Shown here piece by piece: positions 36,766 to 40,800 of a DNA stretch of 43,234 nt (position 1 is its first letter; the number at the start of each line of letters is the position of its first letter). The stretch comes from an uncultured Mycoplasmatota bacterium (lineage in GTDB: Bacteria; Bacillota_I; Bacilli_A; RF39; UBA660). The DNA is taken from contig CANORV010000003.1 of NCBI GenBank assembly GCA_947569245.1, positions 1-43,234 on the forward strand. The letters run 5' to 3'. A program made the translations under genes and the position numbers. The notes below the pieces were generated by a model that saw only the letters and a program-made list of their open reading frames with translations, was not told the DNA's origin and did not search any database.

Positions 36766-38514
36766 TTACTTTTTCTTTTCTAGTTGAATTGATAATTCTT
36801 TTAATTGTTTTTCATCTACTATATTTGGTGCATCACTCATTAAACAGGTTGCACTAGTAGTTTTAGGAAAGGCAACTACATCTCTAATGTTATCAGTGTC
36901 TACTAGTAACATAATAAGTCTTTCTAAGCCAATTCCAACGCCACAATGAGGTGGTGCTCCATATTTGAAAGCTTCTAAGAAAAAGCCAAATTTATTAATT
37001 GCTTCTTCATGAGTCATACCAATTGCTTCAAAAACTTTTTCTTGTAATTCTTCTTCATGAATACGAACAGAACCACTTAAAAGTTCATAACCATTTAGTA
37101 CTAAGTCGTATGCTCTTGAATAGCAATTTTCTTTATCAGTTAATAGTTTATCAATGTCTTTTTTATTTGGAGATGTAAAAGGATGATGAGCAGCAACATA
37201 TCTTTCTTCTTCCTCACTATATTCAAACATTGGAAAATCAGTTACCCATAAAAAGTTAAATTTATCTTTTTCAACTAAGTTTAGTTCATGACCTAGTTTT
37301 AATCGTAGTGCTCCAAGGGCAGTTTGGGAAACACTTTTTTTATCGGCAACAATAAATATCAAGTCATTATCTTTAATATTTAATTTTTGAATAATAGAAG
37401 CTTTTTCTTCATCACTTAATACCTTGGCAATTGTTCCTGTTAGTTCATTGTTTTTATACTTTAAAAACGATAGAGCTTTAGCTTTATAAACTTTGACAAA
37501 TTCTGTTAGTTTATCAATATCTTTTCTAGAAAATATATCGGCTTTGTTCTCTACAACAATAGCATTAATTACCCCTTTATTTAAAATGATATCTTTAAAT
37601 ATTTGAAAATCGGTATTATTAAAAATATCAGTTATATCGTTAAGTTCCATTTTAAAACGAGTATCTGGTTTATCACTACCAAATCGACTCATACATTCAG
37701 TATATTTTAATCTAGGGAATTTTTCTAAAGTAACTCCTTTTATTTCTTTAAAAATTTCATTCATTAAACCTTCAACTATATTCCAAATGTCTTCTTCACT
37801 AGCAAAACTCATTTCGATATCAATTTGAGTAAATTCTGGTTGACGATCAGCTCTTAAATCTTCATCTCTAAAACAACGAGCTATTTGAAAGTATTTTTCC
37901 ATTCCACCAATCATTAAAAGCTGCTTATATAATTGTGGTGATTGTGGTAGAGCATAGAAGCAACCCTTAGTAATACGACTTGGTACTAAGTAGTCTCTTG
38001 CTCCTTCTGGTGTTGATTTACAAAGAATTGGTGTTTCTACTTCAGCAAAGCCTAACTTATTTAAATAATTTCTTACAATTAGTGTAACTTTACTTCTAGT
38101 TATTAAATTGTTTTGTAATTGTGGTCTTCTTAAGTCAAGATAACGGTATTTTAATCTTGTATCTTCCAATGCAGTTGTATCATCTGTTAATTCAAATGGT
38201 AAGTCAATTGATTTATTAATTACAGACAAGCTTAAGACATCAACTTCTATTTCTCCTGTTTTAAGTTTAGGATTTTTGCTTTCTCTTTCAACTACTTTTC
38301 CAATTACTTTTATAACGTATTCACTTTTTAAACTGCTAGCAAGATCATAAAACTCATTTTCTGGTTTTACAGCTAATTGAATAATACCACTTCTATCTCT
38401 TAAATCGATGAAGACTAAACCTCCTAAGTTACGTTTTTTTAAAACCCAACCATAAAGCTCTATTTCTTCACCTACGTTTTTAATATTGTAATCTGTATTG
38501 TTTGTTAATTTCAT
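36766..38514 (-). CDS. aspS: Aspartyl-tRNA synthetase
   Basis: A class II synthetase of the bacterial AspRS type, 582 residues. It has the N-terminal OB anticodon domain (about 1-105; ELYGWVLKKRNLGGLVFIDLRDRSG region) and motif 2 RCFRDEDLRADRQPEFTQID. A GAD insertion domain lies near 280-400, and motif 3 GVGIGLERLIMLL near the end. It charges tRNA-Asp. The ATG at 38514 is preferred because AGAGGTG lies 7 nt upstream; an in-frame GTG at 38523 adds three residues. It follows hisS by 14 nt, the common hisS-aspS operon order. Confidence 0.96.
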   Translation of the reverse strand: MKLTNNTDYNIKNVGEEIELYGWVLKKRNLGGLVFIDLRDRSGIIQLAVKPENEFYDLASSLKSEYVIKVIGKVVERESKNPKLKTGEIEVDVLSLSVINKSIDLPFELTDDTTALEDTRLKYRYLDLRRPQLQNNLITRSKVTLIVRNYLNKLGFAEVETPILCKSTPEGARDYLVPSRITKGCFYALPQSPQLYKQLLMIGGMEKYFQIARCFRDEDLRADRQPEFTQIDIEMSFASEEDIWNIVEGLMNEIFKEIKGVTLEKFPRLKYTECMSRFGSDKPDTRFKMELNDITDIFNNTDFQIFKDIILNKGVINAIVVENKADIFSRKDIDKLTEFVKVYKAKALSFLKYKNNELTGTIAKVLSDEEKASIIQKLNIKDNDLIFIVADKKSVSQTALGALRLKLGHELNLVEKDKFNFLWVTDFPMFEYSEEEERYVAAHHPFTSPNKKDIDKLLTDKENCYSRAYDLVLNGYELLSGSVRIHEEELQEKVFEAIGMTHEEAINKFGFFLEAFKYGAPPHCGVGIGLERLIMLLVDTDNIRDVVAFPKTTSATCLMSDAPNIVDEKQLKELSIQLEKKK

Positions 38515-38528
38515 AAGTAACACCTCTT

Positions 38529-39857
38529 CTAATTTTCATGATGATGATTTTCATGATCACAGCTACATTCTTTACAACTACACTCATCATCACCTGCTAA
38601 TTGTTCATCTAAATAATACAAAATATAATCTAAATCAACTGTTTCTTCTTCTTTTGTTATGTTATTTTTTACCTTGATTCTATTTTCTTTTAAGTCTTCA
38701 TCATTTAAAATGATAAGCATTTTACTATTTAGTCTATCTGCTTGTTTAAATTGTGATTTTAGACTTCTATTTGTGTATTCAGTATCACATGAAAAACCAT
38801 TCATTCTTAATTCTTGGATAAGAGTTGTTGCAAATTCTTTTTCTGTTTCTGATACATACATTACAAAAACATCAAGGCTATCATTTATTGGTAAGTTTAT
38901 TTTTGATTCCTCTAAAGCTAACATAAGCCTATCTATACCAGATGCAAAGCCAATTCCAGGAGTAGTTGGTCCACCTAGTGCTTCTACTAAGTCATTATAT
39001 CTTCCACCACCTGCTAAGGCTATTTTGTTTTCAGATCCTTTAATTTTAGCTTCTATTTCAAAAACAGTATGTGAATAATAGTCTAGTCCACGAACAAGAT
39101 TAGAATCAATTTCATATGGTATATCTAATAAAGATAGAAATTTTTGAACTTTTGTAAATCTTTCTTTACTTTCTTTAGTTAAGTAGTCTTTCATATTAGG
39201 TACATTTTTCATAATGTCTAAATCATGATCAACTTTACAATCTAGTACTCTAAGTGGATTTTTTTCAAGTCTTATTTTGCAGTCTTCACATAGTTTATTT
39301 ATATGTGGTTTAAAGTAATCAATTATAGCTTTACGATAATTGTCTCTAGATATTTTATCCCCCAAAGAATTTATTTTTAAAGTTACATCAAGTCCTAAAA
39401 TACGAAAAATATTAAAGGCTAGTGATATTACTTCAGCATCTATCATTTCATCATCACTACCTAAGACTTCTACTCCAAATTGAGTTAATTCTCTATTTCT
39501 TCCTGCTTGTGGTCTTTCATATCTATACATAGTTCCATTGTAGTATAGTTTGGTTGGATTAGTATTATCACCATACATCTTATTTTCAATATAGCTTCTG
39601 ACTACACCAGCTGTTCCTTCTGGTCTAAGAGTTAAGTTTCTTTCTCCTCTATCTTTAAAGTCGTATGTTTCTTTATTAACTATATCACTTGATTCCCCTA
39701 CTGCCCTATGAAACACTTCACTATTTTCAAATAATGGTGTTCTAATATACTGATAGTTATATTTTTCACAAAGTGATGCTAATAAGTTGTTGACATACTC
39801 CCATTTTTTAGCTTCTTTACCATATAGGTCATAACATCCTTTAGCTTTTGTTATCAT
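38529..39857 (-). CDS. hisS: Histidyl-tRNA synthetase with Cys/His-rich tail
   Basis: This class II synthetase charges tRNA-His. Motif 2 is RYERPQAGRNRELTQFG; the histidine-binding motifs are LVRGLDYYSHTVFE and AGGGRYNDL, followed by the anticodon-binding domain (about 325-420). At 442 residues it is about 20 longer than usual. The extra tail (422-442) contains CSCKECSCDHENHHH, four Cys and four His, an obvious metal-binding candidate not found in standard HisRS. GAGGGAT precedes the ATG. A T-box leader lies directly upstream and aspS directly downstream. Confidence 0.95.
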   Translation of the reverse strand: MITKAKGCYDLYGKEAKKWEYVNNLLASLCEKYNYQYIRTPLFENSEVFHRAVGESSDIVNKETYDFKDRGERNLTLRPEGTAGVVRSYIENKMYGDNTNPTKLYYNGTMYRYERPQAGRNRELTQFGVEVLGSDDEMIDAEVISLAFNIFRILGLDVTLKINSLGDKISRDNYRKAIIDYFKPHINKLCEDCKIRLEKNPLRVLDCKVDHDLDIMKNVPNMKDYLTKESKERFTKVQKFLSLLDIPYEIDSNLVRGLDYYSHTVFEIEAKIKGSENKIALAGGGRYNDLVEALGGPTTPGIGFASGIDRLMLALEESKINLPINDSLDVFVMYVSETEKEFATTLIQELRMNGFSCDTEYTNRSLKSQFKQADRLNSKMLIILNDEDLKENRIKVKNNITKEEETVDLDYILYYLDEQLAGDDECSCKECSCDHENHHHEN

Positions 39858-39880: not shown

Positions 39881-40096
39881 AAAAAAGGTGACACAGTATA
39901 AGGACGAGATTACTCGTGGTGCCACCTTAATTTCATGATAGTTATCATGCTTATTATATCTTAACGCGATTTATTATTCACGCTTCTTTTTTTATAAAGT
40001 GTCTTCATTATTAAAATAAACGATATCTTCCACCAAATAATATCTCTCTTTAGTTTTTCTAATAATTACTCCTCTTTAAAGAAGATACTTTTATTT
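39881..40096 (-). promoter_or_regulatory. T-box riboswitch of the hisS-aspS operon
   Basis: Reading the minus strand, the T-box sequence AAGGTGGCACCACG (39928-39915) is plain. It can form the antiterminator (AAGG/CCTT plus ACGAG/CTCGT) or a 10-bp terminator (AAGGTGGCAC with GTGTCACCTT) followed by TTTTTT (39886-39881). Stem I runs from about 40094 and includes an AGTA element, AGAGAG and the apical GGTGGAAG. On its 3' side GAAGACACTT contains the specifier: GAC (Asp, 40003-40001) or, overlapping, CAC (His, 40001-39999). The acceptor-binding TGGC predicts a G discriminator, which fits tRNA-Asp rather than tRNA-His. A stem III-like CATGAT/ATCATG hairpin lies before the T-box. The promoter is not certain. 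Confidence 0.92.
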
Positions 40097-40113: not shown

Positions 40114-40800
40114 TCAATCAATAGTTCTTTCAATATTAATTAAGTTTTTTTCGATTAATGACTCATGAATTTGTTCTTCTAAAGTTCCAGTGTAAATTTC
40201 TTCAATTCTATCAACACGGCATTTTTCAGCTAATATAATAGCTTCTATTTTTTTAACAGCTTCATCTACTATATCATTAACAACAACGTAATTGTACTTT
40301 GTTACTTCGTTTAATTCATTGTAAGCACTCTTAAATCTGTCTAATATTTTTTCTTTGTCTTCTAAGCCACGAGCTATAATTCTTCTTTTAACTTCTTCCA
40401 TTGATGGTGCTAAAATAAATATAAGTATGGCATCAGGAAATTTTTCTTTGATGTTTTTGGCTCCCTCTATATTTATTTCTAGTAAGCAGTCAATTCCATT
40501 ATTTAGTTTTTCTAAAATATTAGTTTTTGGTGTTCCATAGTAGTCTTTACCATGAACTATAGCATATTCTAAGAATTCATCGTTTTTTATTTTTTCTAGG
40601 AACTTATCTTTGGTAATAAAGAAGTATTCATTACCTTCAATGTCTCCACCACGAATACTTCTACTAGTATAGGATACACTTCTATATATGTTTTTGTTTT
40701 TCTCTAATAGTTTTTTACTAACTGTACCTTTTCCGGCACAAGTTGTACCGCTTATAATGATAAGATTTCCTTTATTACTAGTTTTAATTGTTTCTCTCAT
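40114..40800 (-). CDS. gmk: Guanylate kinase
   Basis: Gmk phosphorylates GMP to GDP with ATP. The 228-residue product has a P-loop GTTCAGKGT (18-26; usual GPSGVGKGT), the GMP-binding SVSYTSRSIRGGDIEGNEYFF (about 41-61, usual TTRxPRxGE) and HGKDYYGTP. A lid with RGLEDKEKILDRF follows. The length is slightly above the usual 205-210 because of a C-terminal tail. It begins 18 nt after the pyrophosphatase gene, with AAAAGGA upstream, so the two form an operon. A candidate promoter for the T-box transcript overlaps its 3' end. Confidence 0.93.
   Translation of the reverse strand: MRETIKTSNKGNLIIISGTTCAGKGTVSKKLLEKNKNIYRSVSYTSRSIRGGDIEGNEYFFITKDKFLEKIKNDEFLEYAIVHGKDYYGTPKTNILEKLNNGIDCLLEINIEGAKNIKEKFPDAILIFILAPSMEEVKRRIIARGLEDKEKILDRFKSAYNELNEVTKYNYVVVNDIVDEAVKKIEAIILAEKCRVDRIEEIYTGTLEEQIHESLIEKNLINIERTID

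Follow-up and report, generated by a model that had tools for sequence, protein, structure and literature searches.

Known T-Box Leaders of hisS–aspS Operons

In the T-box family of leader RNAs, an uncharged tRNA pairs with the leader at two places: its anticodon pairs with a specifier codon, and its NCCA end pairs with a UGGN sequence. This holds an antiterminator in place, and transcription passes. If the tRNA is charged, a terminator forms.

The closest described systems are the hisS–aspS leaders of bacilli and lactobacilli. In PMC5313534 (citing Gutierrez-Preciado et al. 2009), the word GACAC is given as typical of these leaders and tRNA-Asp as their proposed main ligand. The word can be read as an aspartate codon, GAC, or as a histidine codon, CAC, and a hisS–aspS element has been suggested to sense both tRNA-Asp and tRNA-His via alternative structures (PMC4342826). 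The idea of a dual response is an old one and is weakly supported.

The earlier note on this DNA mentioned that overlapping specifiers for two tRNAs had been proposed for other T-boxes, and one such case is indeed described. The Asn/Glu T-box of C. acetobutylicum (Saad et al. 2013, PNAS, via the summary in PMC4052509) likewise has overlapping codons, with the enzymes for both tRNAs in its operon. The leader described here has the parts of the Rfam family RF00230: stem I with a specifier loop and a distal module, a UGGN antiterminator and a terminator. The codon shift in the C. acetobutylicum element is reportedly of one base and stays within the loop. The CAC reading of the present leader would instead be a two-base shift that uses a base closing a helix.

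The Leader and Its Operon

The window is the whole stretch of DNA that was analysed, 43,234 nucleotides long. Its T-box leader occupies the gap between gmk (40114–40800) and hisS, which is followed by aspS. The presence of HisRS and AspRS in one operon, as first read from the window, is confirmed by protein family matches.

40085–39881, minus strand: transcriptional T-box leader RNA, from stem I to terminator (RF00230 match, fold, terminator and U-run)
38529–39857, minus strand: hisS, histidine–tRNA ligase (NCBIfam equivalog TIGR00442, 469 bits, above cutoff)
36766–38523, minus strand: aspS, bacterial-type aspartate–tRNA ligase (NCBIfam equivalog TIGR00459, 801 bits, above cutoff)

The whole RF00230 model matches 40085–39897 with 89.5 bits (E = 2e-20), slightly below the Rfam gathering score of 93. 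The genome is AT-rich and holds twelve T-boxes at E < 1e-6 against the same model, several of which score near 89.5 bits. The fold of the leader RNA beats 199 of 200 shuffles (z = −3.1). A copy from the same genus is 81% identical and keeps every motif. Full-length matches in a DNA search with the leader were confined to this genus, and more distant leaders were located via the hisS and aspS proteins.

The leader is a further member of the known T-box family. Gene order, the GACAC word and the type of T-box are the same as in the bacilli and lactobacilli leaders; the difference is its origin in an uncultured lineage of Bacilli, and its specifier is no different. A promoter-like sequence just before stem I (TTGATT-17-TAAAAT, 40121–40093, minus strand) was also considered, and is no better than chance.

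All parts of the leader lie on the minus strand and are given here from 5' to 3'.

40074–40078, minus strand: lower stem I helix, 5' strand UAAAG; this helix covaries, and G40074 pairs with C39999
40067–40073, minus strand: 5' side of the specifier loop, AGGAGUA, from alignment (AGUA motif 40070–40067)
between AGGAGUA and the distal module, minus strand: upper helix of stem I
40022–40049, minus strand: distal stem I with AGAGA and GGUG, predicted from aligned sequences of relatives to be the module that binds the tRNA elbow
40006–40004, minus strand: GAA, 3' side of the specifier loop, directly before the codon
40003–40001, minus strand: specifier codon GAC (Asp), right after GAA
40000, minus strand: A after the codon, the conserved T-box purine
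39999–40001, minus strand: proposed overlapping His codon CAC, the last base of which, C39999, is in the closing pair of the lower helix
39995–39999, minus strand: lower stem I helix, 3' strand CUUUA
39900–39928, minus strand: antiterminator with the T-box sequence AAGGUGGCACCACG; UGGC at 39924–39921 is the complement of the tRNA-Asp GCCA end
39881–39926, minus strand: competing intrinsic terminator of 8 bp, GGUGGCAC/GUGUCACC, with U6 at 39886–39881

The computed folding energies of the two competing structures are −16.0 kcal/mol for the terminator and −7.9 kcal/mol for the antiterminator.

Reading of the Specifier

Stem I was aligned with 49 others. Its specifier loop has the AGUA and GAA sides, followed by the codon and then by a purine (GAA-GAC-A, 40006–40000). 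The specifier had been read as GAA-GACAC-UUU, and this reading holds on the minus strand with one correction: the final C of GACAC (40003–39999) pairs with G40074 and lies outside the loop. The earlier preference for GAC is also borne out, since the conserved purine stands directly after this codon, as described for T-boxes in PMC7583486.

We judge it roughly 80% probable that the leader is a transcriptional T-box responding to uncharged tRNA-Asp by turning on hisS–aspS, and that the CAC reading is incidental. In this mechanism, the stem I GAC would pair with the GUC anticodon, and A40000 would act as the stacking purine. The GCCA end of uncharged tRNA-Asp would then pair with UGGC in the antiterminator, blocking the terminator, and RNA polymerase would continue into hisS and aspS. 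Charged tRNA-Asp would let the terminator form and transcription stop. HisRS would simply be carried along in the operon, and we infer that histidine supply draws no response. The CAC word would take its first letter from the end of GAC, its second from the general T-box purine A and its third from the base of the stem I closing pair.

The strongest competing explanation is that the leader is a sensor with two codons. Its loop would slide by two bases and bind either tRNA-Asp at GAC or tRNA-His at CAC, balancing both synthetases. The operon does hold the genes for both enzymes, and the Asn/Glu element is a known T-box for two tRNAs. We consider this reading unlikely for the leader at hand. In the CAC frame, the base that follows the codon is U39998 and not the conserved purine. 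Further evidence comes from the helix in which the third CAC base lies.

The Closing Pair of the Lower Helix

If the leader read two overlapping codons in the manner of a two-codon loop, both would lie inside the specifier loop. Here the third base of CAC is instead part of a covarying closing pair. The 50-row stem I alignment, 41 rows of which have an Asp codon and whose sequences were partly chosen by pairing, compares this base with the base four before AGUA and gives G-C in 30 rows, A-U in 12, U-A in 1 and other combinations in 7. The whole stem I structure in this alignment far exceeds shuffled and slid controls. As a check on the selection by pairing, leaders aligned by a covariance model were counted by position only. 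The base after GACA and the base four before AGUA are C-G in 42, U-A in 15 and other in 7.

For a His codon to be read, the loop would therefore have to shift by two bases and the helix to open. The computed cost of opening the C39999–G40074 pair in this stem I is 3.0 kcal/mol. Two leaders (L207 and L218) retain the C despite a mismatched closing pair, which favours a role for CAC.

A milder form of dual sensing is that in at least some GACAC hisS–aspS leaders, including that of the window, a single pair of the lower helix opens by fraying and CAC can be bound weakly by tRNA-His. We regard this as a slim possibility. If true, the operon would answer a shortage of either charged tRNA.

Conservation of the Codons in hisS Leaders

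GAC leaders were the main input to a covariance model (R1), with which 93 distinct hisS leaders of the family and the class were aligned. In the canonical frame, the codon is GAC in 85, GAU in 3 (one of which, L067, is poorly aligned) and AAC in 5. CAC occurs in none. The five-base words of the GAC leaders are GACAC in 63, GACAU in 15, GACAA in 4, GACAG in 2 and GACGC in 1, and those of the others are GAUAC in 2, GAUAU in 1, AACAA in 3, AACAU in 1 and AACGC in 1.

Fourteen of the 93 have no histidine codon at all (GACAA, GACAG, GACGC, GAUAC and others). The possibility of reading His has repeatedly gone, in at least seven genera, by way of GACAG (G136 and G011), GACAA (G015 and G043, and G321 outside the family), GACGC (G059, outside the family) and GAUAC (G118 and Scybalousia). 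Two leaders of this kind, L361 (GAUAC) and L378 (GACAA), nevertheless stand ahead of hisS and a bacterial aspS.

The earlier note had proposed to align the leaders of relatives, and the outcome is mixed. Several relatives keep the Asp codon and lose CAC or CAU, and none keeps CAC alone. This is the pattern that the note had named as refuting its idea, and the dual response it had entertained is not supported. On the other side, CAC or CAU (together CAY) is present in 78 of the 85 GAC hisS leaders, and leaders from outside the family have GACAC in 33 of 36 cases, close to fixation. The composition of R1 and the selection of sequences by pairing also weaken the case for Asp alone.

Many genomes of the family have, after hisS, a gene whose product shows only about 30% identity to the AspRS of the window, over part of its length (L051, L054, L055, L058, L063, L065, L066, L068, L071, L074, L158, L159 and L166). 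The examples of such genes identified by NCBIfam, L150 and L151, are AspRS of the archaeal or non-discriminating type. Most leaders of the group keep the Asp codon in the T-box.

Is the Histidine Codon More than Incidental?

The excess of CAY was compared with other T-boxes, in each case uncorrected for ancestry. Given an A after the codon, CAY is found in 78 of 84 hisS leaders and in 18 of 22 other NNC T-boxes (p = 0.21), an excess that is not significant and so does not help the two-codon sensor. When A is not conditioned on, the counts are 78 of 85 GAC hisS leaders and 18 of 27 NNC controls (p = 0.003), a difference that stems chiefly from Phe leaders, in which the codon is followed by G.

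Leaders of aspS alone within the family have CAY in 6 of 13, below the proportion in GAC hisS leaders (p = 0.001), which is in favour of two codons. This deficit comes partly from four GAU specifiers. GAU is rare as a specifier among T-boxes. It is found in 4 of the 13 Asp leaders of aspS alone (L282, L270, L286 and L261) and 3 of the 93 hisS leaders.

Incidental CAY can also be seen in unrelated T-boxes, such as AACAC (Asn) and AUCAC (Ile) in the same genome and UACAC (Tyr) elsewhere. The AACAC leader of this genome (L003, C1:41321–41562) lies ahead of a gene that is not a synthetase; its product of 199 aa is presumably YbaK-like, by the look of its sequence.

Taken as a whole, the CAY counts give no clear sign of selection for CAC. 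What remains of the excess leaves a dual reading perhaps one chance in ten.

The Acceptor End

In hisS leaders, the fourth base of UGGN is never G or A: 54 have C and 36 have U. All distinct tRNA-Asp genes found in relatives have G73-CCA, and both tRNA-His genes found there have C73 and an encoded G-1. The always pyrimidine base of UGGN thus fits G73 of tRNA-Asp and not C73 of tRNA-His, and the G discriminator that had been predicted from TGGC is the one found. Searches for tRNA-Asp and tRNA-His genes in the incomplete genome itself and in its congener found neither, so the match is based on relatives.

The mismatch between UGGC and C73 speaks against the use of CAC by tRNA-His. Its weight is lessened by the less strict UGGN match known for the acceptor end of tRNA-His; TBDB waives this criterion for His (PMC7778990).

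Mini T-Boxes and Leaders Switched to Asn

Mini T-boxes precede hisS in seven genomes from four genera (G145; G036 and G430; G008; G128, G470 and G623).

L085:473–600 (G145): mini T-box
L104:102–211 (G036), minus strand: mini T-box
L442 (G430): mini T-box
L118:450–600 (G008): mini T-box
L068:1350–1480 (G128): mini T-box
L448 (G470): mini T-box
L449 (G623): mini T-box

Stem I is reduced in them to a basal helix topped by a short hairpin whose terminal loop contains UGAC, for example GUAAG-AGUGACAG-CUUAC. They have the usual UGGC antiterminator and an intrinsic terminator, and lack the distal elbow module. A mini T-box looks like a normal stem I from which everything above the specifier loop has been removed. 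The Rfam scores of the two that were scanned reach only about 35 bits. Among 40 hisS leaders with no R1 match, an Rfam check gave two T-boxes, both of the mini type. In all seven, GAC is kept in the loop and Asp alone can be read, which counts against a second codon.

Five hisS leaders (L091, L081, L089, L128 and L076) have AAC (Asn) as the canonical specifier, as does one aspS leader (L073/L154). The genes after three of these five include asparagine–tRNA ligase (G049 and G034) or a ligase of the aspartate–tRNA(Asn) type (G049 and G035). The specifier thus follows the Asp or Asn genes and not hisS; in these leaders it has switched from Asp to Asn, as judged from sequence, with hisS still in first place. 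A gatA-like gene (L150) is also found among the genes following AAC leaders.

Remaining Alternatives

It is very improbable that CAC is the real specifier, with GAC there by chance. The position of hisS as first gene would suit a His sensor, and the hisS–aspS T-box of MRSA is labelled as a histidine one in PMC7927825. Against this, the canonical position in hisS leaders is always GAC, GAU or AAC, relatives with GAC or GAU and no CAY exist, mini T-boxes retain GAC only, and the acceptor match is to G73.

A degenerate or non-functional remnant, which the score below the gathering cutoff could suggest, is hardly credible given that all modules are intact down to the terminator and U-run, that the E-value is so low, that comparable scores are seen for several other T-boxes of this AT-rich genome and that the congeneric copy keeps all motifs.

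Significance

Sensing of tRNA-Asp remains the favoured reading of the leader. The second codon in GACAC can be explained structurally, by the closing pair and the conserved purine. The use of GACAC as a dual codon has so far been a suggestion in the literature, and natural leaders that keep the Asp codon and lose the His codon are now listed. According to the review PMC7583486, a transcriptional T-box as a rule requires a long stem I, and an ultrashort one is described mainly in translational T-boxes; the transcriptional mini T-boxes run counter to that rule.
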